Assembly (NCBI GenBank): GCA_014843695.1
Contig: CM026390.1
Span: forward strand, 58,895,053 to 58,959,052
Direction of reading: 5' to 3'
Length of the DNA: 64,000 nucleotides
Source: Archivesica marissinica
Lineage: Eukaryota; Mollusca; Bivalvia; Venerida; Vesicomyidae
The position numbers and the translations under genes were made by a program. This document shows, one piece after another, positions 5,312 through 59,583 of this stretch; the first letter of the stretch is position 1; each line of letters opens with the position of its first letter. The notes beneath the pieces were generated by a model. That model was given only the letters and a program-made list of their open reading frames with translations. It was not told the origin of the DNA and did not search any database.

Positions 5312-5710
5312 AAATAATACTACATAGTTACCCCCTTATTTTCTAAATCCATTTGTACTAGGGGAGACCGGGGATAGTTGTTACACGGGGTAAGTTGTTA
5401 CACAACGGAAAACTAATTGATGACGTCAAGTATGATTTCACTTATTCCACGAATTGTTTTCAAATATCGCCGCCATTTTTTACACTGAAGCTGTGTCAGA
5501 GCTGCACGAACGAAACGAAATTTAGCGCCCAATGAGTGATTTTCGACCACGTAAGTAACTTTTTATGTTGTTAACATTTTTCATTTCAGGACCATGTATT
5601 TAAAATACCGTAAAACTTGTAAATGTATTTTAACTGAGTAAGGACTCGGCTTTAAAAATGTACGATTCTCGATGATGAAGCTGAATGTGTAAATTATCTC
5701 CTTCGGTGTT

Positions 5711-6343
5711 ATGGCATGTGGTATACTCGGGGCAAGTTGTTACACTAGGCATGGGGCATGTTGTTACATCTCTCTCAGGACTGATGAGCCTCATTTGGAA
5801 GAAGCACCGAGCCAGGAGACACTTGAACAGCATGCCCCACACGAACCATTCGCCATATTAAACGCCAAGTTACGAGAGATAAATCGGGAGGTTGTGCAGG
5901 TTTCTGGCGACGGACATTGTCTTTTGCATGCAGTAGTAGTAGGTCTTGCCGATGAGGGTATAGAAGAGTTACCTAGTGAAACGTTGTGTACAATGTTGGT
6001 CTCTGAAATATCAGACCACGCTGATCATTATATGCAATTTTCAAATGACCGGAATATCCGTGACGACATAGATCGATACGTTCGCCTCAAGGAATACAAC
6101 AACGACACGGCGGATTTAATATTGGCTGCATTGTGTAACTGCCTTGGGATAGCTGCCATCATTTACCACCAAACAGCACCTGGAATTATAAACATCCTTG
6201 TCACCGGTCCAGGCAGGCCAGACGTCGTCTTCAGAGGAGATATATACCTGGTCCTCAAGGGTAACAATGGAAACGCACATTACAGTGGCGTAAAGAAAAT
6301 CAGAACAGACACACAACATCCAACATCATTCTCGCCAGAATGA
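5711..6343 (+). CDS. OTU-domain cysteine protease carried by a transposon
   Basis: The 210-codon frame encodes an ovarian-tumour (OTU) fold deubiquitinase-like protein. Residues 62-75 contain the catalytic signature QVSGDGHCLLHAV, with Asp67 and the nucleophile Cys70. The partner His190 lies in NAHYSGV near the end, after GDIYLVLKG. All three catalytic positions are present and spaced as in OTU proteases, which cleave ubiquitin linkages. Residues 1-22 translate the transposon's subterminal GTTGTTACA repeats and are probably not protein. A polypyrimidine tract and CAG at 5767-5778 suggest a 3' splice site, making TDEPHLEE the likely first native residues. A small upstream exon at 5532-5550 (ATG followed by GTAAGT) is possible, but its phase does not join cleanly. 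The frame runs directly into the transposase-like tail and is stopped by TGA at 6341-6343. Confidence 0.75.
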   Translation: MACGILGASCYTRHGACCYISLRTDEPHLEEAPSQETLEQHAPHEPFAILNAKLREINREVVQVSGDGHCLLHAVVVGLADEGIEELPSETLCTMLVSEISDHADHYMQFSNDRNIRDDIDRYVRLKEYNNDTADLILAALCNCLGIAAIIYHQTAPGIINILVTGPGRPDVVFRGDIYLVLKGNNGNAHYSGVKKIRTDTQHPTSFSPE

Positions 6344-6781
6344 ATACGCCCATTTCCAAAGGCTCCCCCCCAGAAAAATCACAGGAGGACGCAAAAAGCG
6401 CAGAAGTGCTGTTCTTACGGATACGCCTGAGAAAAATGCAATAGAGGGAGAAAATAGGCACACACCAAAGGACACAAAAACTGATACAAATACAAGGAAA
6501 CTAGGTAAAAGGTCACTTACAAGCAAGTCACAGAAGAAAAATGAACTGAAACTGAAAAAGAGACAGACATGCAGTAAAGCTCTCGTGGAGGAAACCTCAT
6601 CCGATGAAGAAGAATGTGTTTGTTTAGTCTGTGTCGAGCCTTATTCTAACAGTCGTCCAAGAGAAGCTTGGATTCAGTGCCAGGGTTGCAAGAATTGGTC
6701 GCACGAGGAATGCACCAATGTGATGAAAATAACGCATACGTCTGTCACAATTGTGACTCCGAAGATGACGTTGGTCTTTAA
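6344..6781 (+). pseudogene. Broken pogo/Tigger-type transposase C-terminal tail with PHD-like finger
   Basis: Directly after the OTU stop the same frame reads IRPFPKAPP. A length change in the C run at 6365-6371 then moves the frame. The next frame gives RKITGGRKKRRSAVLTDTPE, a lysine/arginine-rich linker, an acidic patch (SSDEEE) and a zinc finger with Cys-x-Cys-x2-Cys, then WIQCQGCKNWSHEEC. A further frameshift near 6720 restores AYVCHNCDSEDD and a stop at 6779-6781. The order 'PFPKAPPRK...LTDTPEKN...C-C...WIQC..C..W.HE.C...YVC..C' is typical of the C-terminal end of invertebrate DDE_1 (pogo/Tigger) transposases. The catalytic DDE region that should precede it is absent, with the OTU domain in its place. 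One stop and two frameshifts make the tail untranslatable as one piece in this copy. Confidence 0.7.
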
Positions 6782-6833
6782 AATAAACTTCATCATCGTT
6801 GCTGTTATGCTATAGTGTAGAGACAGAAAGAAT

Positions 6834-7169
6834 TACAGTCAAACTTCGGTAATTCGAACTCGTTTAATTCGTAGCATATGCGTATTTCGTAGTGAAAGCA
6901 AAGTTCTTTCAAATGGAATAGATAGTAAGAAATATCCAAGAAAACATGTGTTTAAAGGAGGAATTTCTCATATGAGTAATTTCTCCTTTTACCACATGCT
7001 TTTACATGCATATATTCCTACATATTCATATCACATATTGTTTAAACATATATATTAATGCGTTTTATTCTGAAAGTGCCAACTCCGCTAGTTCGTATAT
7101 ACAGTTAATTCGAATACATTTACTTACATAATGGTCCCTTGCACTTCGAATTACCGTAGTTTGACTGTA
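6834..7169. mobile_element. Nested pogo/Tigger-type MITE
   Basis: Inverted repeats CAGTCAAACTTCGGTAATTC (6836 onward) and its partner ending at 7167 match at 22 of 23 positions. TA lies on each side (6834-6835, 7168-7169). The CAGTCAAACyTCGGTAATTCGAA end and the TA duplication are typical of Tigger/pogo MITEs. The 332-bp interior has no coding capacity. It sits inside the OTU transposon, so it inserted later. Confidence 0.88.
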
Positions 7170-7810
7170 CATTCCATGTTGGCAAGGAGTATTTGTTCAG
7201 TGTGATGAAATGCTACATTTCCCACAATGTTTTAAAAGTTAAAGAGATGTTTTAAAATAAGTTAACATAAGTTATGTGTTAAATTTGTGTTCCTGTTTGA
7301 ATGGATTACCATGGTTATATGTATTGCATGTTTAAAAGTTGGTTATATTTGCATGAATAAAATATAAAACTGTAAGGACAAATTGTAACAACTTACCCCG
7401 AACTCTGTAACAACATGCCTCAGTGGCGGGGCATGTTGTTACATTTCACTGACCTAATATGTCAGGCTGGTCCGAGCGGAAATGCTATTGCATTCATTGA
7501 ATGATGTGCACGTATGCTAACACCAATGTTGTGCTTTGCGTAGATAGGTGAATAATGTGTATCGACAAATTATTGGAGAAGATGTGAACAAAAATGTGAA
7601 AAGTGTAACAACTATCCCCGGTCTCCCCTAAATCGCTTCCGAAGATTGCTTGCATAAGCAAGTATGAAACTGATAAGTAAAGCGACCATATAACCCGTTT
7701 ATGTGTTGATTCATCATTCACCAATATATATAGGTATATATATACACAAATATTATATATACATAAAATGCTGCTACATGTATGTAAATTAAACAACAAC
7801 ATTTGTAATG

Positions 7811-14440: not shown

Positions 14441-17400
14441 CGATGGTAACTATGTATTGTTCTATATGTTGATGGTAAATATGTATTGTTCTATATGTAT
14501 ATTGTAAATATGTATTGTTCTATATGTATATTGTAAATATGTATTGTTCTATATGTTAAGGTAAATATGTATTGTTCTATATGTAGATGGTAACTATGTA
14601 TTGTTCTATATGTTGATGGTAAATATGTATTGTTCTATATGTTGATGGTAAATATGTATTGTTCTATATGATGATGGTAAATATGTATTGTTCTATATAT
14701 TAAGGTAAATATGTATTGTTCTATGTGTTGATGGTAAATATGTATTGTTCTATATATTAAGGTAAATATGTATTGTTCTATATGTTGATGGTAAATATGT
14801 ATTGTTCTATATTTAGGTAAATATGTATTGTTCTATATGTTGATGGTAAATATGTATTGTTCTATATATTAAGGTAAATATGTATTGTTCTATATGTTGA
14901 TGGTAAATATGTATTGTTCTATATGATGATGGTAAATATGTATTGTTCTATATGTTGATGGTAAATATGTATTGTTCTATATGATGATGGTAAATATGTA
15001 TTGTTCTATATGTATATTGTAAATATGTATTGTTCTATATGTTGATGGTAAATATGTATTGTTCTATATGTTGATGGTAAATATGTATTGTTCTATATGT
15101 TGATGGTAAATATGTATTGTTCTATATGTTGATGGTAAATATGTATTGTTCTATATATTAAGGTAAATATGTATTGTTCTATATGTTGATGGTAAATATG
15201 TATTGTTCTATATGATGATGGTAAATATGTATTGTTCTATATGTTGATGGTAAATATGTATTGTTCTATATGATGATGGTAAATATGTATTGTTCTATAT
15301 GTATATTGTAAATATGTATTGTTCTATATGTTGATGGTAAATATGTATTGTTCTATATGTTGATGGTAAATATGTATTGTTCTATATGTTGATGGTAAAT
15401 ATGTATTGTTCTATATGTTGATGGTAAATATGTATTGTTCTATATATTAAGGTAAATATGTATTGTTCTATATGTTGATGGTAAATATGTATTGTTCTAT
15501 ATGATGATGGTAAATATGTATTGTTCTATATGTATATTGTAAATATGTATTGTTCTATATGATGATGGTAAATATGTATTATTCTATATGATGATGGTAA
15601 ATATGTATTGTTATATATGTATATTGTAAATATGTATTGTTCTATATGTTAATGGTAACTATGTATTGTTCTATATGTTGATGGTAAATATGTATTGTTC
15701 TATATGTATATTGTAAATATGTATTGTTCTATATGTTAATGGTAACTATGTATTGTTCTATATATTAAGGTAAATATGTATTGTTCTATATGTTGATGGT
15801 AAATATGTATTGTTCTATATGATGATGGTAAATATGTATTGTTCTATATGTTGATGGTAAATATGTATTGTTCTATATGTTGATGGTAACTATTTATCAT
15901 TCTATATGTCAATGTCAACTATGTAGTGTTCTATATGTTGATGGTAAATATGTATTGTTCTATATGTTGATGGTAAATATGTAGTGTTCTATGTGTTGAT
16001 GGTAAATATGTATTGTTCTATATGTTAATGGTAATTATGTATTGTTCTATATGTTAATGGTAACTATGTATTGTTCTATATGTTAATGGTAACTATGTAT
16101 TGTTCTATATGTTGATGGTAACTGTGTTGTTCTATATGTTGGTGGTAACTATGTATTGTTCTATATGTTGATAGTAACTATGTATTGTTCTATATGTTGA
16201 TAGTAACTATGTATTGTTCTATATGTTGATAGTAACTATGTATTGTTCTATATGTTGATAGTAACTATGTATTGTTCTATATGTTGATGGTAACTATGTA
16301 TTATTCTATATGTTGATGGTAACTATGTATTGTTCTATATGTTGATGATAACTATGTATTGTTCTATATGTTGATGGTAAATATGTATTGCTCTATATGT
16401 TGATGGTAACTATGTATTGTTCTATATGATGATGGTAACTATGTATTGTTGTATATGTCAATGGTAACTATGTATTGTTCTATATGTTGATGGTAAATAT
16501 GTATTGTTCTATATGTCAATGGTAACTATGTATTGTTCTATATGTTGATGGTAAATATGTATTGTTCTATATGTCAATGGTAACTATGTATTGTTCTATA
16601 TGTTGATAGTAAATATGTATTGTTCTATATGTCAATGGTAACTATGTATTGTTCTATATGTTGATGGTAAATATGTATTGTTCTATATGTTAAAGGTAAC
16701 TATGTATTGTTCTATATGTTGATGGTAACTATGTATTGTTCTATATGTTGATGGTAACTATGTATTGTTCTATATGTTGATGGTAGTTATGTATTGTTCT
16801 ATATGTTGATGGTAAATATGTATTGTTCTATATGTTGATGGTAAATATGTATTGTTCTATATGTTGATGGTAGTTATGTATTGTTCTATATGTTAATGGT
16901 AAATATGTATTGTTCTATATGTTGATGGTAAATATGTATTGTTCTATATGTTAATGGTAACTATGTATTGTTCTATATGTTGATGGTAACTATGTATTGT
17001 TGTATATGTCAATGGTAACTATGTATTGTTCTATATGTTGATGGTAAATATGTATTGTTCTATATGTCAATGGTAACTATGTATTGTTCTATATGTTGAT
17101 GGTAAATATGTATTGTTCTATATGTCAATGGTAACTATGTATTGTTCTATATGTTGATAGTAAATATGTATTGTTCTATATGTCAATGGTAACTATGTAT
17201 TGTTCTATATGTTGATGGTAAATATGTATTGTTCTATATGTTAAAGGTAACTATGTATTGTTCTATATGTTGATGATAACTATGTATTGTTATATATGTT
17301 GATGGTAACTATGTATTGTTCTATATGTTGATGGTAGTTATGTATTGTTCTATGTGTGGATGGTAAATATGTATTGTTCTATATGTTGATGGTAAATATG

Positions 17401-20400
17401 TATTGTTCTATATGTTGATGGTAGTTATGTATTGTTCTATATGTTAATGGTAAATATGTATTGTTCTATATGTTGATGGTAAATATGTATTGTTCTATAT
17501 GTTAATGGTAACTATGTATTGTTCTATATGTTGATGGTAACTATGTATTGTTCTATATGTCAATGGTAAATATGTATTATTCTATATGACAATGGTCAAT
17601 ATGTATCATTCTATATGTTGATGGTAACTATGTATCATTCTATATGTTGATGGTAACTATGTATCATTCTATATGTTGATGGTAACTATGTATTGTTCTA
17701 TATGTTGATGGTAAATATGTATTGTTCTATATGTTGATGATAACTATGTATCATTCTATATGTCAATGTCAACTATGTAGTGTTCTATATGTTGATGGTA
17801 ACTATGTATTGTTCTATATGTTGATGGTAACTATGTATTGTTCTATATGTTGATGGTAACTATGTATCATTCTATATGTTGATGGTAACTATGTATTGTT
17901 CTATATGTTGATGGTAACTATGTATTGTTCTATATGTTGATGGTAAATATGTATTGGTCTATATGTTGATGGTAACTATGTATTGTTCTATATGTTGATG
18001 GTAAATATGTATTGTTCTATATGTTGATGGTAAATATGTATTGTTCTATATGTTGATGGTAAATATGTATTGTTCTATATGTTAATGGTAAATATGTATT
18101 GTTCTATATGTTGATGGTAAATATGTATTGTTCTATATGTTGATGGTAACTATGTATTGTGCTATACGTTGATGGCAACTATGTATTGTTCTATATGTTG
18201 ATGGTAACTATGTATTGTTCTATATGTCAATGTCAACTATGTATTGTTCTATATGTTGATGGTAACTATGTATCATTCTATATGTCAATGTCAACTATGT
18301 ATTGTTCTATATGTTGATGGTAACTATGTATTGTTCTATATGTTGATGGTAAATATGTATTGTTCTATATGTCAATGGTAACTATGTATTGTTCTATATG
18401 TTGATGGTAAATATGTATTGTTCTATATGTCAATGGTAACTATGTATTGTTCTATATGTTGATGGTAAATATGTATTGTTCTATATGTTAAAGGTAACTA
18501 TGTATTGTTCTATATGTTGATGGTAACTATGTATTGTTCTATATGTCAATGGTAACTATGTATTGTTCTATATGTTGATGGTAAATATGTATTGTTCTAT
18601 ATGTTGATGGTAGTTATGTATTGTTCTATATGTTAATGGTAAATATGTATTGTTCTATATGTTGATGGTAAATATGTATTGTTCTATATGTTAATGATAA
18701 CTATGTATTGTTCTATATGTTGATGGTAACTATGTATTGTTCTATATGTCAATGGTAAATATGTATTATTCTATATGTCAATGGTAAATATGTATCATTC
18801 TATATGTTGATGGTAACTATGTATCATTCTATATGTTGATGGTAACTATGTATTGTTCTATATGTTGATGGTAACTATGTATCATTCTATATGTTGATGG
18901 TAACTATGTATTGTGCTATACGTTGATGGTAACTATGTATTGTTCTATATGTTGATGGTAACTATGTATTATTCTATATGTCAATGTCAACTATGTATTG
19001 TTCTATATGTTGATGGTAACTATGTATCATTCTATATGTCAATGTCAACTATGTATTGTTCTATATGTTGATGGTAACTATGTATTGTTCTATATGTTGA
19101 TGGTAACTATGTATTGTTCTATATGTTGATGGTAACTATGTATTGTTCTATATGTTGATGGTAACTATGTATTGTTCTATATGTCAATGTCAACTATGTA
19201 TTGTTCTATATGTTGATGGTAACTATGTATTGTTCTATATGTTGATGATACCTATGTTTTGTTCTATATGTTGATGGTAAATATGTATTGTTCTATATTT
19301 TGATGGTACATATGTATTGTTCTATATGTTGATGGTAGTTATGTATTGTGCTATATGTTGATGGTAAATATGTATTGTTCTATATGTTAATGGTAAATAT
19401 GTATTGTTCTATATGTTAATGGTAAATATGTATTGTTCTATATGTTGATGGTAAATATGTATTGTTCTATATGTTGATGGTAAATATGTATTGTTCTATA
19501 TGTTGATGATACCTATGTATTGTTCTATATGTTGATGGTAAATATGTATTGTTCTATATGATGATGGTAAATATGTATTGTTCTATGTGTTGATGGTAAC
19601 TATGTATTGTTCTATATGTTGATGATACCTATGTATTGTTCTATGTGTTGATGGCAGTTATGTATTGTTCTGTATGTTGATGGTAAATATGTATTGTTCT
19701 ATATGTTGATGGTAAATATGTATTGTTCTATATATTAAGGTACATATGTATTGTTCTATATGTTGATGGTAACTATGTATTGTTCTATATGTCAATGGTA
19801 AATATGTATTATTCTATATGTCAATGGTAAATATGTATCATTCTATATGTTGATGGTAACTATGTATCATTCTATATGTTGATGGTAACTATGTATTGTT
19901 CTATATGTTGATGGTAATTATGTATCATTCTATATGTTGATGGTAACTATGTATTGTTCTATATGTTGATGGTAAATATGTATTGTTCTATATGTTGATG
20001 GTAAATATGTATTGTTCTATATGTATATGGTAAATATGTTTTGTTCTATATGTTGATGATAACAATATATTGTTCTATATGTTGATGGTAAATATGTATT
20101 GTTCTATATGTATATGGTAAATATGTATTGTTCTATATGTTGATGATAACTATATATTGTTCTATATGTTGATGGTAAATATGTATTGTTCTATATGTAT
20201 ATGGTAAATATTTTTAGTTCTATATGTTGATGATACCTATGTATTGTTCTATATGATGATGATACATATGTATTGTTCTATGTGTTGATGGCAGTTATGT
20301 ATTGTTCTATATGTTGATGGTAAATATGTATTGTTATATATGTTGATGGTAAATATGTATTGTTCTATATGTTGATGGTAAATATGTATTGTTCTATGTG

Positions 20401-23400
20401 TTGATGATACCTATGTATTGTTCTATATGTTGATGATACCTATGTATTGTTCTATATGTTGATGATACCTATGTATTGTTCTATGTGTTGATGGCAGTTA
20501 TGTATTGTTCTATATGTTGATGGTAAATATGTATTGTTCTATATGTTGATGATACATATGTATTGTTCTATATGTTGATGATACCTATGTATTGTTCTAT
20601 ATGTTGATGGTAAATATGTATTGTTCTATATGTTGATGGTAAATATGTATTGTTCTATATGTTGATGGTAAATATGTATTGTTCTATATGTTGATGATAC
20701 CTATGTATTGTTCTATGTGTTGATGGTAAATATGTATTGTTCTATATGTTGATGATACCTATGTATTGTTCTATGTGTTGATGGCAGTTATGTATTGTTC
20801 TATATGTTGATGGTAACTATGTATTGTTCTATATGTTGATGGTAACTATGTATTGTTCTATATGTTGATGGTAACTATGTATTGTTCTATATGTTGATGG
20901 TAAATATGTATTGTTCTATATGTTAATGGTAAATATGTATTGTTCTATATGTTAATGGTAAATATGTATTGTTCTATATGTTGATGGTAAATATGTATTG
21001 TTCTATATGTTGATGGTAAATATGTATTGTTCTATGTGATGATGGTAAATATGTATTGTTCTATATGTTGATGATACCTATGTATTGTTCTATATGTTGA
21101 TGGTAAATATGTATTGTTCTATATGATGATGGTAAATATGTATTGTTCTATATGTTGATGGTAAATATGTACTGTTCTATATGTTGATGGTAAATATGTA
21201 TTGTTCTATATGTTGATGGTAAATATGTATTGTTCTATATGATGATGGTAAATATGTATTGTTCTATGTGTTGATGGTAAATATGTATTGTTCTATATGT
21301 TGATGATACCTATGTATTGTTCTATGTGTTGATGGCAGTTATGTATTGTTCTTTATGTTGATGGTAACTATGTAGTGTTCTATATGTTGATGGTAACTAT
21401 GTATTGTTCTATATGTTGATGGTAACTATGTATTGTTCTATATGTTGATGGTAAATATGTATTGTTCTATATGTTAATGGTAAATATGTATTATTCTATA
21501 TGTTAATGGTAAATATGTATTGTTCTATATGTTGATGGTAAATATGTATTGTTCTATATGTTGATGGTAAATATGTATTGTTCTATGTGATGATGGTAAA
21601 TATGTATTGTTCTATATGTTGATGATACCTATGTATTGTTCTATATGTTGATGGTAAATATGTATTGTTCTATATGATGATGGTAAATATGTATTGTTCT
21701 ATATGTTGATGGTAAATATGTATTGTTCTATATGTTGATGGTAAATATGTATTGTTCTATATGTTGATGGTAAATATGTATTGTTCTATATGATGATGGT
21801 AAATATGTATTGTTCTATGTGTTGATGGTAAATATGTATTGTTCTATATGTTGATGATACCTATGTATTGTTCTATGTGTTGATGGTCGTTATGTATTGT
21901 TCTTTATGTTGATGGTAACTATGTAGTGTTCTATATGTTGATGGTAACTATGTATTGTTCTATATGTTGATGGTAAATATGTATTGTTCTATATGTTAAT
22001 GGTAAATCTTTATTGTTCTATATGTTAATGGTAAATATGTATTGTTCTATATGTTGATGGTAAATATGTATTGTTCTATATGTTGATGGTAAATATGTAT
22101 TGTTCTATATGTTGATGATACCTATGTATTGTTCTATATGTTGATGGTAAATATGTATTGTTCTATATGATGATGGTAAATATGTATTGTTCTATATGTT
22201 GATGGTAAATATGTATTGTTCTATATGATGATGGTAAATATGTATTGTTCTATGTGTTGATGGTAAATATGTATTGTTCTATATGTTGATGATACCTATG
22301 TATTGTTTTATGTGTTGATGGCAGTTATGTATTGTTCTTTATGTTGATGGTAAATATGCATTGTTCTATATATTAAGGTAAATATGTATTGTTCTATATG
22401 TTAATGGTAAATATGTATTGTTCTATATGTTAATGGTAACTATGTATTGTTCTATATGTTGATGGTAAATATGTATTGTTCTATATGTATATGGTAAATA
22501 TGTATTGTTCTATATGTTGATGATAACTATATATTGTTCTATATGTTGATGGTAAATATGTATTGTTCTATATGTTAATGGTAAATATGTATTGTTCTAT
22601 ATGTCAATGGTAAATATGTATTGTTCTATATGTTGATGGTAAATATGTATTGTTCTATATGTATATGGTAAATTTGTTTTGTTCTATATGTTGATGATAA
22701 CTATATATTGTTCTATATGTTGATGGTAAATATGTATTGTTCTATATGTATATGGTAAATATGTATTGTTCTATATGTATATGGTAAATATGTATTGTTC
22801 TATATGTTGATGATAACTATATATTGTTCTATATGTTGATGGTAAATATGTATTGTTCTATATGTATATGGTAAATATGTATTGTTCTATATGTTGATGA
22901 TACCTATGTATTGTTCTATATGTTAATGATACATATGTATTGTTCTATGTGTTGATGGCAGTTATGTATTGTTCTATATGTTGATGATAACTATGTATTG
23001 TTCTATATGTTGATGATACCTATGTATTGTTCTATATGTTGATGGTAAATATTTATTGTTCTATATTTTGATGGTACCTATGTATTGTTCTATATGTTGA
23101 TGATACCTATGTATTGTTCTATATGTTGATGGTAACTATGTATTGTTCTATATGTTGATGGTAACTATGTATTGTTCTATATGTTGATGATAACTATGTA
23201 TTGTTCTATATGTTGATGATACCTATGTATTGTTCTATATGTTGATGGTAAATATTTATTGTTCTATATTTTGATGGTACCTATGTATTGTTCTATATGT
23301 TGATGATACCTATGTATTGTTCTATATGTTGATGGTAACTATGTATTGTTCTATATGTTGATGGTAACTATGTATTGTTCTATATGTTGATGATAACTAT

Positions 23401-23678
23401 GTATTGTTCTATATGTTGATGATACCTATGTATTGTTCTATATGTTGATGGTAAATATTTATTGTTCTATATTTTGATGGTACCTATGTATTGTTTTATA
23501 TATTAAAGTAAATATGTATTGTCTATATGTTAATGGTAAATAGGTATTGTTCTATATGTTGATGGTAATTATGTATTGTTCTATATGTTAATGGTAAATA
23601 TGTATTGTTCTATATGTTGATGGTAAATATGTATTGTTCTATATGTTAATGGTAAATATGTATTGTTCTATATGTTAA
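14441..23678. repeat. 29-bp minisatellite array, about 9.2 kb
   Basis: The unit starts GTATTGTTCTATATGTTGAT and ends GGTAAATAT, in about 318 copies. Variants change the GATGG(T)AAATAT part (AACTAT, ATACCTAT, GCAGTTAT, TATATTGTAAAT). Higher-order structure is visible: a 551-bp block of 19 units repeats (markers at 21031 and 21582), and a 203-bp block of 7 units repeats three times (23048, 23251, 23454). It fills most of the first intron of set 1. Stops in all frames exclude coding. Confidence 0.97.
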
Positions 23679-24984: not shown

Positions 24985-27900
24985 GAGTTCATTCCCGCCA
25001 GAACCACCAGTCAAGTGTCCTTAGACCAGCCACATAACACACATTGCCTCATCTCTGTCTCCATCGTGCCACATTGCCTCATCTATATCTCCATCGTGCC
25101 ACATCACCCACATTGCCTCATCTATATCTCCATCGTGCCACATCACCCACATTGCCTCATCTATATCTCCATCGTGACACACCACCCTCATTGCCTCATC
25201 TCTGTCTCCATCGTGGCACATCACCCACATTGCCTCATCTATGTCTCCATCGTGGCACATCATCCACATTGCCTCATCTCTGTCTCCATCGTGGCACATC
25301 ACCCACATTGCCTCATCTCTGACTCCATCGTGACACATCATCCACATTGCCTCATCTCTGTCTCCATGGTGACACGTCACCCACATTGCCTCATCTCTGT
25401 CTCCATCGTGGCACATCACCCACATTGCCTCATCTCTGTCTCCATCGTGGCACATCACCCACATTGCCTCATCTCTGTCTCCATCGTGGCACATCACCCA
25501 CATTGCCTCATCTATGTCTCCATCGTGGCACATCACCCACATTGCCTCATCTCTGACTCCATCGTGACACATAACACACATTGCCTCATCTATGTCTCCA
25601 TCGTGACACATAACACACATTGCCTCATCTATGTCTCCATCGTGACACATAACACACATTGCCTCATCTATGTCTCCATCGTGACACATAACACACATTG
25701 CCTCATCTCTGACTCCATCGTGACACATAACACACATTGCCTCATCTATGTCTCCATCGTGGCACATCACCCACATTTCCTCATCTCTGACTCCATCGTG
25801 ACACATAACACACATTTCCTCATCTCTGTCTCCATCGTGGCACATCACCCACATTGCCTCATCTCTGACTCCATCGTGACACATAACACACATTGCCTCA
25901 TCTCTGACTCCATCGTGACACATAACACACATTGCCTCATCTATGTCTCCATCGTGGCACATCACCCACATTGCCTCATCTCTGACTCCATCGTGACACA
26001 TCACCCACATTTCCTCATCTCTGTCTCCATCGTGACACATAACACACATTGCCTCATCTCTGTCTCCATCGTGGCACATCACCCACATTGCCTCATCTCT
26101 GACTCCATCGTGACACATAACACACATTTCCTCATCTCTGACTCCATCGTGACACATAACACACATTGCCTCATCTATGTCTCCATCGTGGCACATCACC
26201 CACATTGCCTCATCTCTGACTACATCGTGACACATAACACACATTGCCTCATCTCTGTCTCCATCGTGGCACATCACCCACATTGCCTCATCTCTGTCTC
26301 CATCGTGACACATAACACACATTGCCTCATCTCTGTCTCCATCGTGGCACATCACCCACATTGCCTCATCTCTGTCTCCATCGTGGCACATCACCCACAT
26401 TGCCTCATCTCTGTCTCCATCGTGACACATAACACACATTGCCTCATCTCTGTCTCCATCGTGGCACATCACCCACATTGCCTCATCTCTGTCTCCATCG
26501 TGGCACATCACCCACATTGCCTCATCTATGTCTCCATCGTGGCACATCACCCACATTGCCTCATCTCTGACTCCATCGTGACACATAACACACATTGCCT
26601 CATCTATGTCTCCATCGTGACACATAACACACATTGCCTCATCTATGTCTCCATCGTGACACATAACACACATTGCCTCATCTATGTCTCCATCGTGACA
26701 CATAACACACATTGCCTCATCTCTGACTCCATCGTGACACATAACACACATTGCCTCATCTATGTCTCCATCGTGGCACATCACCCACATTTCCTCATCT
26801 CTGACTCCATCGTGACACATAACACACATTTCCTCATCTCTGTCTCCATCGTGGCACATCACCCACATTGCCTCATCTCTGACTCCATCGTGACACATAA
26901 CACACATTGCCTCATCTCTGACTCCATCGTGACACATAACACACATTGCCTCATCTATGTCTCCATCGTGGCACATCACCCACATTGCCTCATCTCTGAC
27001 TCCATCGTGACACATCACCCACATTTCCTCATCTCTGTCTCCATCGTGACACATAACACACATTGCCTCATCTCTGTCTCCATCGTGGCACATCACCCAC
27101 ATTGCCTCATCTCTGACTCCATCGTGACACATAACACACATTTCCTCATCTCTGACTCCATCGTGACACATAACACACATTGCCTCATCTATGTCTCCAT
27201 CGTGGCACATCACCCACATTGCCTCATCTCTGACTACATCGTGACACATAACACACATTGCCTCATCTCTGTCTCCATCGTGGCACATCACCCCACATTG
27301 CCTCATCTCTGTCTCCATCGTGACACATAACACACATTGCCTCATCTCTGTCTCCATCGTGGCACATCACCCACATTGCCTCATCTCTGTCTCCATCGTG
27401 GCACATCACCCACATTGCCTCATCTCTGTCTCCATCGTGACACATAACACACATTGCCTCATCTCTGTCTCCATCGTGGCACATCACCCACATTGCCTCA
27501 TCTATGTCTCCATCGTGCCACATCACCCACATTGCCTCATCTATATCTCCATCGTGACACGTCACCCACATTGCCTCATCTCTGTCTCCATCGTGCCACA
27601 TCATCAACATTTCCTCATCTATATCTCCATCGTGACACGTCACCCACATTGCCTCATCTCTGTCTCCATCGTGCCACATCATCAACATTTCCTCATCTAT
27701 ATCTCCATCGTGACACGTCACCCACATTGCCTCATCTATATCTCCATCGAGGCACATCACCCACATTGCCTCACCGATGTCTCCATCGTGACACATCCTC
27801 ATTTCCTCATATTTGACTCCATCGTGACACGTCACCCACATTACCTCATCTCTGTCTCCATCGTGGCACATCACCCACATTTCCTCATCTCTGTCTCCAT

Positions 27901-28432
27901 CGTGGCACATCACCCACATTGCCTCATCTCTGTCTCCATCGTGGCACATCACCCACATTGCCTCATCTCTGTCTCCATCGTGGCACATCACCCACATTGC
28001 CTCACCGCTGTCTCCATCGTGGCACATCACCCACATTGCCTCATCTCTCTCTCTCCATCGTGGCACATCACGCACATTTCCTCATATCGGTCTCCATCGT
28101 GGCACATCACCCACATTGCCTCATCTCTCTCTCTCCATCGTGGCACATCACGCACATTTCCTCATATCGGTCTCCATCGTGGCACATCACCCACATTGCC
28201 TCATCTCTCTCTCTCCATCGTGGCACATCACGCACATTTCCTCATATCGGTCTCCATCGTGGCACATCACCCACATTGCCTCATCTCTCTCTCTCCATCG
28301 TGGCACATCACGCACATTTCCTCATATCGGTCTCCATCGTGTCGATGTATTCCATCAGAAATAATATTTCGAGAGCGATAAAAACGAGTTAATGATGTTT
28401 CGCTATCGTGCTAAATGAAAAGTGTATAAACT
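24985..28432 (+). mobile_element. SINE family B copy expanded internally by a minisatellite
   Basis: Diverged SINE B head sequence lies at about 24985-25028 (GAGTTCATTCCCGCCAGAAC, then GTGTCCTTAGACC). The SINE B 3' part lies at 28338-28432 (TCGATGTATTCCATCAGAAA, CGAGAGCGAT, TGTTTCGCTATCGTGCTAAA, GTATAAACTAA). Between them the segment that normally reads CCACATTGCCTCTTATCTCT-CCCTCGTGGC is present as the 39-bp array. The array therefore replaces the middle of one SINE. Confidence 0.78.
25029..28341. repeat. 39-bp minisatellite array, about 85 copies
   Basis: The unit is CACATTGCCTCATCTCTGTC then TCCATCGTGGCACATCACC, with ACATAACA and CTGACTCC variants. A 1014-bp block (26 units) is duplicated: positions 25561 and 26575, and the rare TACATC variant at 26221 and 27235, are each 1014 apart. 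The last part switches to a 78-bp double unit with CTCTCTCTCC and CATATCGGTC. The period of 39 and lack of stops keep frames open for over 770 codons on both strands (HCLISVSIVAHHP; MCHDGDRDEAMWV). I judge these frames incidental. Confidence 0.97.
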
Positions 28433-35970: not shown

Positions 35971-38900
35971 CATGAAACGCGATCTATGGCACATAATGAT
36001 ATATGGCACATAATGATATATGGTACATTTGTCGAGATAGTTCATGAAACGCGATCTATGGCACATAATGATATATGGTACATAATGCATAAGATTATGG
36101 CACATAATGAGATATGGTACATTTGTCGAGATAGTTCATGAAACGCGATCTATGGCACATAATGATATATGGTACATAATGCATAAGATTATGGCACATA
36201 ATGAGATATGGTACATTTGTCGAGATAGTTCATGAAACGCGATCTATGGCACATAATGATATATGGTACATAATATGGCACATAATGATATATGGCACAT
36301 AATGAGATATGGTACATTTGTCGAGATAGTTCATGAAACGCGATCTATGGCACATAATGATATATGGTACATAATATGGCACATAATGATATATGGCACA
36401 TAATGAGATATGGTACATTTGTCGAGATAGTTCATGAAACGCGATCTATGGCACATAATGATATATGGTACATAATATGGCACATAATGATATATGGCAC
36501 ATAATGAGATATGGTACATTTGTCGAGATAGTTCATGAAACGCGATCTATGGCACATAATGATATATGGTACATAATATGGCACATAATGATATATGGCA
36601 CATAATGAGATATGGTACATTTGTCGAGATAGTTCATGAAACGCGATCTATGGCACATAATGATATATGGTACATTTGTCGAGATAGTTCATGAAACGCG
36701 ATCTATGGCACATAATGATATATGGTACATTTGTCGAGATAGTTCATGAAACGCGATCTATGGCACATAATGATATATGGTACATTTGTCGAGATAGTTC
36801 ATGAAACGCGATCTATGGCACATAATGATATATGGTACATTTGTCGAGATAGTTCATGAAACGCGATCTATGGCACATAATGATATATGGTACATTTGTC
36901 GAGATAGTTCATGAAACGCGATCTATGGCACATAATGATATATGGTACATTTGTCGAGATAGTTCATGAAACGCGATCTATGGCACATAATGATATATGG
37001 TACATTTGTCGAGATAGTTCATGAAACGCGATCTATGGCACATAATGATATATGGTACATTTGTCGAGATAGTTCATGAAACGCGATCTATGGCACATAA
37101 TGATATATGGTACATAATGATATATGGCACATAATGATATATGGTATATTTGTCGAGATAGTTCATGAAACGCGATCTATGGCACATAATGATATATGGT
37201 ACATTTGTCGAGATAGTTCATGAAACGCGATCTATGGCACATAATGATATATGGTACATTTGTCGAGATAGTTCATGAAACGCGATCTATGGCACATAAT
37301 GATATATGGTACATTTGTCGAGATAGTTCATGAAACGCGATCTATGGCACATAATGATATATGGTACATTTGTCGAGATAGTTCATGAAACGCGATCTAT
37401 GGCACATAATGATATATGGTACATTTGTCGAGATAGTTCATGAAACGCGATCTATGGCACATAATGATATATGGTACATTTGTCGAGATAGTTCATGAAA
37501 CGCGATCTATGGCACATAATTATATATTGTACATAATGATATATGGTACATTTGTCGAGATAGTTCATGAAACGCGATCTATGGCACATAATGATATATG
37601 ACATTTGTCGAGATAGTTCATGAAACGCCATCTATGGCACATAATGATATATGGTACATTTGTCGAGATAGTTCATGAAACGCGATCTATGGCACATAAT
37701 GATATATGGTACATTTGTCGAGATAGTTCATGAAACGCGATCTATGGCACATAATGATATATGGTACATTTGTCGAGATAGTTCATGAAACGCGATCTAT
37801 GGCACATAATGATATATGGTACATTTGTCGAGATAGTTCATGAAACGCGATCTATGGCACATAATGATATATGGTACATTTGTCGAGATAGTTCATGAAA
37901 CGCGATCTATGGCACATAATGATATATGGTACATTTGTCGAGATAGTTCATGAAACGCGATATATGGCACATAATGATATATGGTACATAATGATATATG
38001 GCACATAATGATATATGGTATATTTGTCGAGATAGTTCATGAAACGCGATCTATGGCACATAATGATATATGGTACATTTGTCGAGATAGTTCATGAAAC
38101 GCGATCTATGGCACATAATGATATATGGTATATTTGTCGAGATAGTTCATGAAACGCGATCTATGCGGCACATAATGATATATGGTACATTTGTCGAGAT
38201 AGTTCATGAAACGCGATCTATGGCACATAATGATATATGGTACATTTGTCGAGATAGTTCATGAAACGCCATCTATGGCACATAATGATATATGGTACAT
38301 TTGTCGAGATAGTTCATGAAACGCGATCTATGGCACATAATGATATATGGTACATTTGTCGAGATAGTTCATGAAACGCGATCTATGGCACATAATGATA
38401 TATGGTACATAATGATATATGGCACATAATGATATATGGTATATTTGTCGAGATAGTTCATGAAACGCGATCTATGGCACATAATGATATATGGTACATT
38501 TGTCGAGATAGTTCATGAAACGCGATCTATGGCACATAATGATATATGGTATATTTGTTGAGATAGTTCATGAAACGCGATCTATGCGGCACATAATGAT
38601 ATATGGTACATTTGTCGAGATAGTTCATGAAACGCGATCTATGGCACATAATGATATATGGTACATTTGTCGAGATAGTTCATTAAACGCCATCTATGGC
38701 ACATAATGATATATGGTACATTTGTCGAGATAGTTCATGAAACGCGATCTATGGCACATAATGATATATGGTACATTTGTCGAGATAGTTCATGAAACGC
38801 GATCTATGGCACATAATGATATATGGTACATTTGTCGAGATAGTTCATGAAACGCGATATATGGCACATAATGATATATGGTACATTTGTCGAGATAGTT

Positions 38901-40940
38901 CATGAAACGCGATCTATGGCACATAATGATATATGGTACATTTGTCGAGATAGTTCATGAAACGCGATCTATGGCACATAATGATATATGGTACATTTGT
39001 CGAGATAGTTCATGAAACGCGATCTATGGTACATAATGATATATGGTACATTTGTCGAGATAGTTCATGAAACGCGATCTATGGCATACATAATGATATA
39101 TGGTACATTTGTCGAGATAGTTCATGAAACGCGATCTATGGCACATAATGATATATGGTACATTTGTCGAGATAGTTCATGAAACGCGATCTATGGCACA
39201 TAATGATATATGGTACATTTGTCGAGATAGTTCATGAAACGCGATCTATGGCACATAATGATATATGGTACATTTGTCGAGATAGTTCATGAAACGCGAT
39301 CTATGGCACATAATGATATATGGTACATTTGTCGAGATAGTTCATGAAACGCGATCTATGGCACATAATGATATATGGTACATTTGTCGAGATAGTTCAT
39401 GAAACGCGATCTATGGCACATAATTATATATTGTACATAATGATATATGGTACATTTGTCGAGATAGTTCATGAAACGCGATCTATGGCACATAATGATA
39501 TATGGTACATTTGTCGAGATAGTTCATGAAACGCGATCTATGGCACATAATGATATATGGTACATTTGTCGAGATAGTTCATGAAACGCGATCTATGGCA
39601 CATAATGATATATGGTACATTTGTCGAGATAGTTCATGAAACGCGATCTATGGCACATAATGATATATGGTACATTTGTCGAGATAGTTCATGAAACGCG
39701 ATCTATGGCACATAATGATATATGGTACATTTGTCGAGATAGTTCATGAAACGCGATCTATGGCACATAATGATATATGGTACATTTGTCGAGATAGTTC
39801 ATGAAACGCGATCTATGGCACATAATGATATATGGTACATTTGTCGAGATAGTTCATGAAACGCGATATATGGCACATAATGATATATGGTACATAATGA
39901 TATATGGCACATAATGATATATGGTATATTTGTCGAGATAGTTCATGAAACGCGATCTATGGTACATAATGAGATATGGTACATTTGTCGAGATAGTTCA
40001 TGAAACGCGATCTATGGTACATAATGAGATATGGTACTTTTGTCGAGATAGTTCATGAAACGCGATCTATGGCACATAATGATATATGGTACATTTGTCG
40101 AGATAGTTCATGAAACGCGATCTATGGCACATAATGATATATGGTACATTTGTCGAGATAGTTCATGAAACGCGATCTATGGCACATAATGATATATGGT
40201 ACATTTGTCGAGATAGTTCATGAAACGCGATCTATGGCACATAATGATATATGGTACATTTGTCGAGATAGTTCATGAAACGCGATCTATGGCACATAAT
40301 GATATATGGTACATTTGTCGAGATAGTTCATGAAACGCGATATATGGCACATAATGATATATGGTACATTTGTCGAGATAGTTCATGAAACGCGATCTAT
40401 GGCACATAATGATATATGGTACATTTGTCGAGATAGTTCATGAAACGCGATCTATGGTACATAATGAGATATGGTACATTTGTCGAGATAGTTCATGAAA
40501 CGCGATCTATGGCACATAATGATATATGGTACATTTGTCGAGATAGTTCATGAAACGCGATCTATGGCACATAATGATATATGGTACATTTGTCGAGATA
40601 GTTCATGAAACGCGATCTATGGCACATAATGATATATGGTACATTTGTCGAGATAGTTCATGAAACGCGATCTATGGCACATAATGATATATGGTACATT
40701 TGTCGAGATAGTTCATGAAACGCGATCTATGGCACATAATGATATATGGTACATTTGTCGAGATAGTTCATGAAACGCGATCTATGGCACATAATGATAT
40801 ATGGTACATTTGTCGAGATAGTTCATGAAACGCGATCTATGGCACATAATGATATATGGTACATTTGTCGAGATAGTTCATGAAACGCGATCTATGGCAC
40901 ATAATGATATATGGTACATTTGTCGAGATAGTTCATGAAA
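35971..40940. repeat. 55-bp minisatellite array, about 5 kb
   Basis: The unit is GGCACATAATGATATATGGT, ACATTTGTCGAGATAGTTCA, TGAAACGCGATCTAT. Near the left edge a 101-bp version with extra CACATAATGATATATGG modules repeats at least three times (36230-36620). A 421-bp higher-order repeat is marked by CTATGCGG at 38161 and 38582 and by a second marker at 37981 and 38402. Frames of 60-63 codons are repeat artefacts. Confidence 0.97.
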
Positions 40941-44655: not shown

Positions 44656-44666
44656 TACATGATAGA

Positions 44667-45890
44667 GACTGGACATCTGATCTCCCTTGTATGTGTATAG
44701 TATATACTGGGCAGATGATCTCCCCTATATATGTACAGTATAGACTGGGCAGATGATCTCCCCTATATATGTACAGTATAGACTGGGCAGATGATCTCCC
44801 CTATATATGTACAGTATAGACTGGGCAGATGATCTCCCCTATATATGTACAGTATAGACTGGGAAGATGATCTCCCCTATATATGTACAGTATAGACTGG
44901 GCATATGATCTCCCCTATATATGTACAGTATAGACTGGACAGATGATCTCCCCTATATATGTACAGTATAGACTGGACACCTGATCTCACCGGTATGTGT
45001 ATATATAGACGCAATGATCTCCCCTATATATGTAAGTATAGACTGGGCAGATGATCTCCCCTATATATGTACAGTATAGACTGGGCAGATGATCTCCCCT
45101 ATATATGTACAGTATAGACTGGGCAGATGATCTCCCCTATATATGTACAGTATAGACTGGGAAGATGATCTCCCCTATATATGTACAGTATAGACTGGGC
45201 ATATGATCTCCCCTATATATGTACAGTATAGACTGGACAGATGATCTCCCCTATATATGTACAGTATAGACTGGACACCTGATCTCACCGGTATGTGTAT
45301 AGTATAGACTGGGCAGATGATCTCCCCTATATATGTACAGTATAGACTGGGCAGATGATCTCCCCTATATATGTACAGTATAGACTGGACACCTGATCTC
45401 ACCGGTATGTGTACAGTATAGACTGGACACCTGATCTCACCTGTATGTGTATAGTATAGACTGGGCAGATGATCTCCCCTATATATGTACAGTATAGACT
45501 GGACAGATGATCTCCCCTATGTATGTACAGTATAGACTGGGCAGATGATCTCCCCTATATATGTACAGTATAGACTGGGCATATGATCTCCCCTATATAT
45601 GTACAGTATAGACTGGACAGATGATCTCCCCTATATATGTATAGTATAGACTGGGCAGATGATCTCCCCTATATATGTACAGTATAGACTGGACACCTGA
45701 TCTCACCGGTATGTGTATAGTATAGACTGGGCATATGATCTCCCCTATATATGTACAGTATAGACTGGGCAGATGATCTCCCCTATATATGTACAGTATA
45801 GACTGGGCAGATGATCTCCCCTATATATGTATAGTATAGACTGGGCAGATGATCTCCCCTATATATGTACAGTATAGACTGGACATATGA
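44667..45890. repeat. 38-bp minisatellite array, about 32 copies
   Basis: The unit is GACTGGGCAGATGATCTCCC then CTATATATGTACAGTATA. A variant subunit ACACCTGATCTCACCGGTAT-GTG recurs at uneven spacing. The array lies between two like-oriented SINE C copies that share an unusual 3' end. Confidence 0.96.
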
Positions 45891-45948
45891 TCTATCGTGG
45901 ATATGAATAGTAAAGATGGCATCTAATACCCCGATATAGATCCCACTA

Positions 45949-50200: not shown

Positions 50201-50725
50201 AGTACTGGTTCCTACTTCCTACCCATGAAATGCGGATTACTGGTTCCTACTTCCTACCCATGAAATGCGGATTACTGGTTCCTACTTCCTACCCATGAAA
50301 TGCGGATTACTGATTCCTACTTACTATCCATGAAATGCGGATTACTGGTTCCTACTTCCTACCCATGAAATGCGGATTACTGGTTCCTACTTCTACCCAT
50401 GAAATGCGGATTACTGGTTCCTACTTACTACCCATGAAATGCGGATTACTGGTTCCTACTTCCTACCCATGAAATGCGGATTACTGGTTCCTACTTCCTA
50501 CCCATGAAATGCGGATTACTGGTTCCTACTTACTACCCATGAAATGCGGATTACTGGTTCCTACTTCCTACCCATGAAATGTGGATTACTGGTTCCTACT
50601 TACTACCCATGAAATGCGGATTACTGGTTCCTACTTCCTACCCATGAAATGCGGATTACTGGTTCCTACTTCCTACCCATGAAATGCGGATTACTGGTTC
50701 CTACTTCCTACCCATGAAATGCGGA
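50201..50725. repeat. 35-bp minisatellite array, left part
   Basis: The unit is GCGGATTACTGGTTCCTACT, TCCTACCCATGAAAT, in about 15 copies with a TACTACCC variant. The array stops abruptly at a LINE and resumes with the same unit after the assembly gap at 59291. Confidence 0.96.
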
Positions 50726-53282: not shown

Positions 53283-54486
53283 ATGGCTTCCCAAAATTCC
53301 CTAAAACGACCACGACCATCAGACGAATCAGAAATACCACTTAAAGCGTATCCAAAATTCTTCATTATTGAATCAGAAATGCATGGAAAAAAAATTGGCT
53401 CACTATCTCCATTTGTTATCGAAAAATCATTGGAAAGTTTAATTGGATCACCAAAATCTGTAAAAAAACTAAGAAACCAAACGTTACTTATTGAAACTAA
53501 ATCCAGATCACAAACTGAAAATATTTTAAAAATAAAACATATACGACATTGATGTTACTATAACGGAACACAGATCTCTAAACAGTTCCAAAGGTATAAT
53601 CAAAGATCACATTTTAAAAGGAGTCTCGAACGAAGATATTGTTAAAAAATTAACTCCACAAGGCGTCACTCAAGCTAAAAGATTCATGTACAAAAAAGAC
53701 GGCCAATTTTTTGAAACTAATACAATTTTATTAACCTTCAACAACACAGTTATTCCACCAAATCTGAAAATCTTTTATAGAAATATAAATGTCGAATTAT
53801 ATATACCAAATCCACTTCGATGTTTCAACTGCCAAAAATTTGGCCACCATGAAGACAACTGTAAAATTACAAAATACTCCATTTGTGAAAATTGTGGTAT
53901 GGGTGAAAACGATCACCTTACCGCAGATTGCCCCAATCAATCAAAATGCGTAAACTGTAAAAAAGATCACATCTCAAAATCGAACAAATGCGAAACTTGG
54001 ATAAAAGAAAAAGAAATCATGAAAATAAAGTGCTCACAAAATATCTATTACTTCGAAGCAAGGAAAATTCAGGAAAATAAACCAGATATATCATACTCTA
54101 AAATAGTTCAATCAGCAATAAATAAGCCAATAATGAAAAATGCATACACTCAAACTGAAATTATTACTGAAATTATTACCGAAAAATCCGAAGCCAAAAA
54201 CAGTTCCAATGACAAAACAAAAACGCACTTATCTTCTCAATCCTCATCCCAATCAACATCTCGTAAATCCCGATCAACATCTGTTATTAAATCAAACTCG
54301 TCACAGAGTAAAACGAACCAACAAAAAAACCCAAATAAACCAAATGGACCTAGCAACCTGAAACAAAACTCAGATAGACCACCGAAGGGATCAGTGGATC
54401 CCATAAAACAATCGAATAAATTCTCTTCATTAGAACATGAAGACATGGAGCTGGTACCAGATCCACCTCCAAACACTAAAATGTAA
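53283..54486 (+). pseudogene. LINE ORF1, gag-like nucleic-acid-binding protein (frameshifted)
   Basis: The ATG at 53283 opens MASQNSLKRPRPSDESEIPL and runs to TGA at 53550-53552. A one-base loss in an A run near 53533-53538 explains the break, because the continuation in the next frame starts immediately (YDIDVTITEHRSLN) and runs to TAA at 54484-54486. The second part has three zinc knuckles: CFNCQKFGHHEDNC, CENCG...HLTADC and CVNCKKDHISKSNKC. A serine- and asparagine-rich C-terminal tail follows. In I- and Jockey-type LINEs this protein coats the element RNA. Confidence 0.85.
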
Positions 54487-54526
54487 TCTTTTTATGTACC
54501 ATTTTTTAATCTTCTCTCCGTAAATA

Positions 54527-57500
54527 ATGGATAAGAATAATACAATAATACAATGGAACTGTCGGGGACTAAAAGCAAACTATAATGAGATTTTAATACT
54601 TATATCTCTGCTTTCACCAAATATCCTTTGTTTGCAAGAAACTTTCCTAAAACCGACTGACAATATATATTTTAAGGATTTTATCATGTTTAATTTTATA
54701 AATAATGATTGTCAAAAGGCATCTGGTGGATCATCCATTCTCATAAACAAGACTGTTCCACATAGTAAAATAGACTTGACTACAAATTTACAGGCCATTG
54801 CTGCCAAGGTTACACTTTCAAAAACATTTACAATTTGTTCCATTTATATACCTCCAAACTCGCCATTAAAACAAAATGATTTAGAGAATCTTGTTGAACA
54901 ATTACCTCACCCTTTTATGTTAGTTGGAGATTTCAATGGACATAGTAAACTATGGTGATGTACAAATATCAATAATAAAGGAAAAATAATAGAAGACTTT
55001 ATAACTGAAAATGATCTTTGTCTATTAAATGATAACAAATCGACATACCTTCATCCTGCCACAGGACATTTTTCTGCTTTAGATTTATGTATATGTCATC
55101 CAAACATTTTCTTAGATTTTGAATGGTCCGTACATGATGACCTACATGGAAGTGACCACTTCCCAATTGTAATCACAGAAATAAACAAATCAAAAGATGA
55201 ATTTTTACCCACAATGGAATCTACAAAAAGCTAATTGGGAAAAATTCCAAATTTTATGCAGAGAACATTTGATATTGGAAAAGATTGGGAACGAGGATCC
55301 AATCACCTCGTTTTCGAATTCACTTTTAAAAATTTCAACGGAATGCATTCCGAAATCCTCTACATCTTCTAAAAGAATTAGACCATGGTTTAATGACGAT
55401 TGTAAAAATGTTATAAATAAACGAAAGAATGCATTGCGTAAATTTAATAAAACTCCCAAAAAAGCAAATCTCTTAAACACACAAATTACACGAGCAAAAG
55501 CTCGAAGAACTATAAAAAATGCAAAAAGCACTTCATGGCAAAAATATGTATCTACTATAAACTCTAATACATCAATGAAAAGGGTTTGGAATATGGTAGC
55601 AAAAATAAATGGCAAGAGGAAAAGCTCAAAAATTGTTCATCTAAATACATCTAATAATAGAACCCATTTAACAAAAAAAGACATATCCAATGTTTTAGGT
55701 GAAAACTTTCAAAACAACTTTTCAACTTCAAACTATAATGAGAAGTTTCAGAAATTTAAAACTGAGAAAGAGAAAGAAAAAATTGATTTTCATTCTAGAA
55801 ATGAAGAAAAATATAATCTACCATTCAATATGTCAGAACTCGAAACTGCTCTACAAAGAACAAAAGAAACGGCCACAGGTCCAGATCAAATCCATTATCA
55901 AATTATAAAACATTTACCAAATAATGCAATGATAACTCTTTTAGATATTTTTAATATGACGTGGGAAAGTGAGAACTTTCCCAAAGAATGGAGTGAAGCC
56001 ATAATCATTCCTATTCCCAAACCAGGAAAAGATCATACAAATCCCACAAATTCTCGTCCCATCGCACTAACTAGTTGTCTATGTAAAACCATGGAGAGAA
56101 TGATTAACGATAGACTTGTTTGGTTCTTGGAATCAAACAGTTTGATTACGAGTTACCAAACGGGTTTTCGGAAATATAAATGTACAACTGATCATCTAGT
56201 AAGACTAGAAACTTATATTCGTAATGCCTTCATCAAAAAAGAACATTTGGTAGCAGTTTTTTTCGATTTAGAAAAGGCATATGATACCACATGGAAATAT
56301 GGTATCCTCAAAGATTTACACGATTTTGGTCTGAAAGGCCACTTGCCAAATTTTATTGCCAATTTTTTATCAAATAGAAATTTTATAGTAAGAATTGGCT
56401 CAACGCTCTCCGATACATACAAACAAGAGCAAGGGGTGCCTCAAGGTAGTATTTTATCCCCAACACTTTTTAATATTAAAATTAATAGCATTGTGAAATG
56501 TTTAAACGAAACAGATTGCTCCTTATATGTAGATGATTTTGTAATGTTCTACAAATCTAAAAATATGGAAACCATTGAACAAAAACTCCAACAATGTCTA
56601 CATAAACTTGAAGATTGGGCAAACGAAAATGGTTTCAAATTCTCTAAAATTAAAACTCAATGCGTACATTTCTGTCAATTGAGAGGATTACATCCAGATC
56701 CAAATTTAACAATTTACGGTTCACAAATTCCTGTAGTAGAAGAAGTAAAATTCCTAGGACTTATATTTGACAAAACATTAACATTCATACCTCATATAAA
56801 TTATCTACGGACGAAATGTCTAAAAGCTCTAAATATTTTGAAGTTGCTCTCCAATACAAATTGGGGAAGCGATTGTCCAGTTCTTATAAATCTATACAGA
56901 TCACTTATCCGTTCCAAACTGGATTACGGATCCATTGTGTATGGATCGGCGAGAAAATCCTACTTGAAAAAGTTAGATACAATACATCATCAAGGTCTAC
57001 GACTGGCTCTAGGAGCTTTTCGCACATCTCCCGTAGAAAGCTTATATGCTGAAACAAATGAACCCTCTTTATACATACGGAGAGAGAAACTCTCGTTACA
57101 ATATACAACCAAACTAGCTGCAAATCCAAAAAATCCTGCATTCAATTGCGTTTTCGAGCCTAAAAACAAAATAGTTTACGGAAACTCTCCATCCGCCATA
57201 AAACCACTAGGTCTCCGTATTAAACCATTATTAGTAGAAGCAAAAATAGATACAATTATACAAGAAAACAAGTTGTTAAATAAAGAACCGTGGACTTTGA
57301 CGACCCCAAACATTATTTTAGATCTTCATTTGTATGAGAATAAGAAAAGTGAAACTAGTCCAGATATTTTTAAAACAAAATTTTTAGAAATAAAATCTAA
57401 ATATAAAGATTATATATCCATCTACACAGATGGCTCAAAAAGACTTGAAAAGGTTGCATGTGCAGCAGTTACCCATACTAAATCAAGTACTGTAAGATAC

Positions 57501-59290: not shown

Positions 59291-59583
59291 GAAATGCGGA
59301 TTACTGGTTCCTACTTCCTACCCATGAAATGCGGATTACTGGTTCCTACTTCCTACCCATGAAATGCGGATTACTGGTTCCTACTTCCTACCCATGAAAT
59401 GCGGATTACTGGTTCCTACTTACTACCCATGAAATGTGGATTACTGGTTCCTACTTCCTACCCATGAAATGCGGATTACTGGTTCCTACTTACTACCCAT
59501 GAAATGCGGATTACTGGTTCCTACTTACTACCCATGAAATGCGGATTACTGGTTCCTATTTCCTACCCATGAAATGCGGATTA
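59291..59583. repeat. 35-bp minisatellite array, right part
   Basis: The same GCGGATTACTGGTTCCTACT unit as at 50201-50725, with about 8 copies visible after the gap. It ends at GCGGATTATCTTCTCTC. Confidence 0.96.

Follow-up and report, generated by a model that had tools for sequence, protein, structure and literature searches.

The window analysed here, a 64,000-nucleotide stretch of the genome of the vesicomyid bivalve Archivesica marissinica (contig CM026390.1, positions 58,895,053 to 58,959,052), carries at 5359-7630 of its plus strand a transposon which encodes an OTU protease. We argue, with a probability of about 0.85, that this element is a non-autonomous, decayed internal-deletion copy of an OTU-bearing pogo-type transposon; the estimate pertains to its anatomy and origin and not to the substrate of the protease. 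The full-length transposase would read, in order, a helical N-terminus, presumably a DNA-binding helix-turn-helix (HTH), a DDE_1 core with DD35D spacing, the OTU domain, a PFPKAPPRK/LTDTPEK stretch and a PHD-like finger, and an internal deletion would have removed the HTH-DDE part, after which the deletion copy multiplied. An earlier note on this DNA, made from its letters alone, had held that the OTU protease sits where the transposase core should be. This did not survive comparison, as both a long copy elsewhere in the genome and full-length relatives showed the DDE core, then the OTU domain, then the tail. Rather than standing in for the core, the OTU domain remains in a window copy whose DDE part was lost by internal deletion.

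The ends of the element were as the note had described them, with perfect 26-bp terminal inverted repeats at 5361-5386 (plus) and 7603-7628 (minus) and TA on both sides, and the arms 5359-5386 and 7603-7630 are 100% complementary over 28 nucleotides, outer TA included. The 25-base core of these ends occurred twice in the window with up to three mismatches, both times as the ends themselves, and on average 0.00 times in 100 shuffled sequences, which rules out their chance origin. We also noticed eight GGGG(C/T)A(A/T)GTTGTTACA-like repeats in the element, two of them inside the ends, against 0.38 expected in the window. The subterminal ones are GGGGTAAGTTGTTACA at 5387-5402 (plus), a pair at 5729-5744 and 5753-5768 (together 5729-5768, plus) and three at 7384-7399 (minus), 7406-7421 (minus) and 7428-7443 (plus), spanning 7384-7443. 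These repeats were absent from the earlier description of the element. A frame of 210 residues at 5711-6343 (plus) holds the OTU domain, which occupies frame residues 51-197 (5861-6301, plus) and carries the catalytic triad D67, C70 and H190 exactly as had been read before; bases upstream of about 5766 are subterminal DNA, and the remainder is the linker-OTU part of the transposase. The frame matched the Pfam model PF02338 above its cut-off with an E-value of 2e-6, and its predicted fold is that of an OTU domain. The note had the transposase tail following immediately after OTU, and IRPFPKAPP does follow directly, but a stop codon at 6341-6343 (plus), where the long copy reads through, stands between the two and the tail itself changes frame twice, so that no continuous OTU-tail frame exists in this copy. 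The tail persists at 6344-6781 (plus) as frame-shifted remains of the IRPFPKAPP and TDTPEK stretches and of a PHD-like finger, which are intact in relatives. This finger, of the pattern C.C..C...WIQC..C..W.HEEC...C..C, reached an E-value of 4.9e-5 and 23.7 bits with the PHD model PF00628, just below the cut-off of 24. Most likely the window copy itself makes no working transposase. Also inside the element is a 25-bp inverted pair (6834-6858 and 7145-7169, 286 bases between, 96% complementary), which may be the termini of a small nested element with inverted repeats.

Copies of the element were sought across the 1.54-Gb assembly, and it was found to be a repeat family present at seven genomic places, besides one 57-base match at 82%. 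Complete copies lie at C5:58900411 (the window), C12:4211935 (97%) and C12:17796074 (96%), and interrupted ones at C5:12069184 and C12:60083280; the copy at C17:81440092 carries an additional deletion, and C17:30562373 has just a 113-bp fragment. TA adjoined 12 of the 13 element ends read. The long copy spans C12:60083280-60092901 (loci L009 and L010) and aligns with positions 3-207, 200-410 and 408-2272 of the window element. Between the last two matching pieces it holds about 1.87 kb which encodes the HTH and DDE parts with frame breaks; these parts lie at L010:1248-2350, and their best local identity to the protein P0011 is 70% over residues 203-344. A GT-AG interval of about 480 bases, intron-like, stands between ...NGFK and VSGIHP, and is followed by the linker, the OTU domain and the tail in full, PHD finger included. 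The first two matching pieces are set apart by a stretch holding a 1208-residue frame which resembles a non-LTR reverse transcriptase, along with a short one resembling a Merlin-type transposase (L009:973-5300), though the latter had no Pfam match. Since a 17-bp inverted stretch lies near the two ends of this interval, with flanks ACTTTTTA and ACATTTTA, we read it as a nested insertion, without which the long copy measures about 4.1 kb. The window copy, L013, L014 and L011 have one common junction, GTTGTTACA/TCTCTCTCAGG, located at 5765-5769 (plus) in the window, where the HTH-DDE part and the intron were removed. In the long copy the left side of this spot reads GTTGTTACA-ATGT and the right side GCTAACA-TCTCTCTCAGG, with ACA present on both; L011 shows a single base difference in the repeat preceding the junction, and in L012 a separate deletion has taken the spot away. 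Pairwise identity among the four deletion copies is 97.4-97.9%, which together with their common junction argues for one deletion event whose product then multiplied.

A search with the window protein returned eight relatives, among which P0005 and P0006 read unbroken through OTU and tail; these are OTU-tail proteins of 318 and 319 residues without DDE in the same frame. When a search was scored on P0006 (OTU plus tail) and proteins of about 350-1115 residues were allowed, 72 were found. By a profile made in this analysis OTU was present in 24 of the 72, and 22 of these 24 had a DDE piece, near-complete in 15; DDE preceded OTU in 22 of the 22 proteins having both. The distance from the DDE end to TDTP was 258-346 residues in proteins with OTU (n = 20, median 282) and 80-242 in those without (n = 43, median 127), which implies that OTU was inserted after the DDE core and ahead of the PFPKA tail; as judged from these spacings, it is an insertion of about 155 residues. 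A Pfam scan of ten relatives placed DDE_1 (PF03184) above cut-off in seven, namely the full-length OTU proteins, the other three being without a full core. The tail is that of a pogo transposase C-terminus and the element is of pogo type, as the note had proposed; one of the two outcomes it had set against its own proposal, a tail unlike DDE_1 C-termini, was not seen, for the tails match proteins with DDE_1. The complete copies combining OTU, DDE and tail which it had suggested looking for were found as the broken long copy and as full-length proteins elsewhere. The note had further supposed that OTU replaced, or was fused to, the DDE core; OTU was fused into a pogo transposase, while the supposed replacement gives way to loss of DDE by deletion.

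We further examined the individual domains of these proteins. The DDD triad was present in 14 of 15 full rows, the remaining row being cut short, and 35 residues separated the second and third D in 13 of the 13 rows with both motifs (11 with OTU, two without; 18 tried). As regards the HTH or CENP-B-type DNA-binding domains expected at a pogo N-terminus, HTH_Tnp_Tc5, HTH_psq and other HTH models gave matches only below their cut-offs among the ten relatives scanned, BrkDBD, which with HTH_Tnp_Tc5 characterises the Passer N-terminus, was not listed at E 0.1, and the PHD model stayed below cut-off wherever listed; the structural model of P0011 has a helical N-terminus. The OTU catalytic triad was intact in all 15 proteins with a near-complete DDE domain, and over 35 rows Cys was kept in 34, His in 35 and Asp in 32, while the mean share of the commonest residue per column was 0.53. 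We predict that the OTU part most likely works as a deubiquitinase.

In the A. marissinica genome itself a search with P0011 was made, in which 58 of 957 candidates were scored and 30 loci fetched, so that other OTU-bearing or domesticated copies may exist. OTU was found in four of the 30 loci (three places) and a partial tail match in 29; in the loci without OTU these matches span the PFPKA/TDTPEK stretch and end short of the PHD finger or close to where it starts. One of the three OTU places, C13:48447988 (L039), is a second, more decayed lineage in which DDE, OTU and tail all have broken frames. On a DDE tree of 68 rows (17 with OTU), which included 11 of the 30 own-genome loci, near-copies being left out along with proteins of fewer than 180 DDE profile columns, the OTU label required two changes (1-3 in a bootstrap which had not quite settled), against a mean of 15 after shuffling. 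On a second, quick DDE tree of 65 rows, made without L039, L044 and L045 owing to their long branches or odd fit, constraining the 16 OTU rows to one group raised the likelihood by 4.89, with p 0.68 in the approximately unbiased test (p-AU). Many independent captures of OTU are thus not favoured, given two changes on the first tree and grouped OTU rows that are not disfavoured on the second. Distances between OTU domains and between DDE domains were correlated in the 15 full rows (r 0.76), and none of 5000 permutations was as high. As regards the source of the domain, a search of PDB with the A2 profile gave weak matches to VCPIP1, Otu2 and PHD proteins, and a Foldseek comparison with viral models found OTU-like proteins sharing 12-21% identity. 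The single window protein had no sequence match in PDB, and scans of viral contigs with P0001, A2 and P0011 yielded no relatives. A search of proteins for matches to P0017's OTU part returned P0017 alone and is uninformative, as known relatives should have matched.

Several observations weigh against our reading. No intact autonomous copy was found among the loci examined in this genome, and the long copy is not a working one: its DDE frame is broken, its OTU catalytic Asp reads Glu and is followed by a stop, and a small gap further on in OTU disturbs the codons in the alignment. Its 5′ end is flanked by CT instead of TA and is separated from the remainder by the presumed nested insertion of about 5.5 kb. 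The Pfam OTU model was above cut-off only in P0014 among the ten relatives scanned, most full-length relatives falling below it and P0021 not being listed; this P0021, from Patella caerulea, is the only OTU-bearing relative with a species name. P0005 has lost the catalytic Cys. A single gain of OTU is compatible with the trees, which allow it and do not prove it. Changes in the OTU frame of the own-genome copies are too few to separate selection from its absence; the ratio of nonsynonymous to synonymous change (dN/dS) ranged from 0.14 to 2.31 over ten pairs of five copies, and as each pair offers just 1-6 silent and 2-13 altering substitutions it was not used.

If the element is a deletion copy of an OTU-bearing pogo transposon, its domain families suggest how the full-length transposase would work. 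Its N-terminus would recognise the ends and the GTTGTTACA repeats, cutting and rejoining at TA would fall to the DDE part, the PHD finger would attach to chromatin, and deletion copies would be moved in trans. OTU may strip ubiquitin from the transposase itself and thereby avert its degradation, a tentative proposal to which we give somewhat less than even odds and which is narrowly favoured because it needs no further partner. With the same anatomy, OTU could instead deubiquitinate chromatin, histones or repair proteins around the cut; we regard this as possible, if rather doubtful. OTU shares its protein with a PHD-like finger, a class of chromatin readers, and a DNA-repair role is proposed for the OTU and Ulp1 domains of Ginger1 in the text available of PMC2836005, and nothing here sets such a substrate apart from self-stabilisation. 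That OTU is merely captured cargo with no role in transposition is unlikely. Capture of host genes by transposons is known, and the Cys loss of P0005 shows that such loss occurs; against this, OTU stands between DDE and tail, after DDE in every protein with both, its triad is kept among otherwise variable columns, and its history follows that of DDE. It is very improbable that OTU replaced the DDE core and that the short element is functional, its stand-alone OTU-PHD protein aiding a transposase encoded elsewhere, because the DDE-bearing copy and the common junction show deletion, even though deletion copies have multiplied and OTU-tail proteins (P0005, P0006) exist elsewhere. One deletion copy does retain a 320-codon open OTU-tail frame (C12:17796899), and dN/dS among the four deletion copies was 0.14-0.67, on changes too few to weigh. 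But the intron-like interval ahead of linker, OTU and tail in the long copy means that a frame finder would report OTU-tail alone, the listed frame of L014 opens on a GTG five residues ahead of the catalytic Asp, no ATG, GTG or TTG lying earlier in that open frame, and in the window the OTU frame is cut from the tail by a stop.

Among known systems, the Passer family of pogo transposons comes near by its description (the comparison is not one of sequences), since the available text of PMC7386202 and PMC9976928 gives it a DDE_1 core with DD35D, a TA target, inverted ends below 30 bp and proteins of 400-500 residues; most full-length OTU proteins here have about 770-870 residues, with OTU between DDE and a PHD-like tail. 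OTU-less tail-bearing pogo transposases, named ones being from Popillia, Plodia, Achroia, Spodoptera, Zophobas, Coilia and others, share the same DDE core and PFPKA/TDTPEK tail, many with a PHD-like finger, but lack OTU and are about 155 residues shorter from DDE to TDTP (medians). Ginger1 transposases, as far as described in PMC2836005, likewise carry OTU or Ulp1 (once with PHD) C-terminal to the core, but that core is Gypsy-integrase-like with a GPY/F motif and of another superfamily, whereas here OTU is followed by a pogo tail. Assignment to Ginger1 was rejected, as the core is DDE_1 and no integrase model was listed at E 0.1 in the ten relatives. Helentrons, according to portions of PMC4067079 and PMC9741609, encode OTU and other deubiquitinases with conserved catalytic residues, for which protection of the transposase from degradation has already been proposed (PMC9741609); they too are transposons with an OTU, but rolling-circle Rep/helicase elements and not DDE elements with terminal inverted repeats. 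No helicase model appeared at E 0.1 in the ten relatives and the element has perfect inverted ends with TA, which excludes this assignment as well. An OTU domain in a pogo transposase was not found in the open-licence full-text literature searched, the reach of which probably stops short of Repbase reports, nor a PHD finger in pogo transposases by title. The transposon papers met with there that concern OTU dealt with Ginger or Helentrons, a further mention being in an unrelated microbiome paper, and among those pairing transposases and OTU with deubiquitination none was on pogo by its title. The DDE-OTU-tail architecture is thus one not seen in print, while OTU in DNA transposons is already known.

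The rest of the window holds other repeats. Non-LTR retrotransposon-like frames occupy 53686-58207, with an endonuclease at 54527-54958, a reverse transcriptase at 55197-57548 and a weak RNase H just below cut-off at 57605-58207; a 266-residue frame ahead of the endonuclease has Cys/His knuckles and no Pfam match. A 29-bp tandem repeat runs for about 319 copies over 9.2 kb (14442-23676), and a 39-bp repeat for about 84 copies (25069-28341); in the latter, long frames of up to 778 residues are open on both strands, probably as a by-product of a period divisible by three. Further minisatellite arrays lie at 36190-40940, 44666-45893, 50203-50725 and 59291-59583, the last two sharing one 35-bp unit in different phase at separate places.

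OTU domains with kept catalytic residues thus occur in unrelated transposons, Ginger1, Helentrons and now pogo, which suggests that ubiquitin is an obstacle or a tool common to them. That relatives of the window copy keep both the DDE core and OTU suggests that certain transposons may come equipped to edit the ubiquitin signals of the cell. At its furthest, and still on the doubtful side, the finding may mean that a pogo lineage has an active and required deubiquitinase along with a chromatin reader, that this is a third independent recruitment of OTU, and that DNA transposition in animals generally needs control over host ubiquitin. The PHD-like finger in the OTU protein offers a testable link to chromatin. 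Since Passer, a member of the pogo superfamily, has a transposition assay in human cells according to the available part of PMC9976928, the need of a transposon for its own deubiquitinase would be directly testable.
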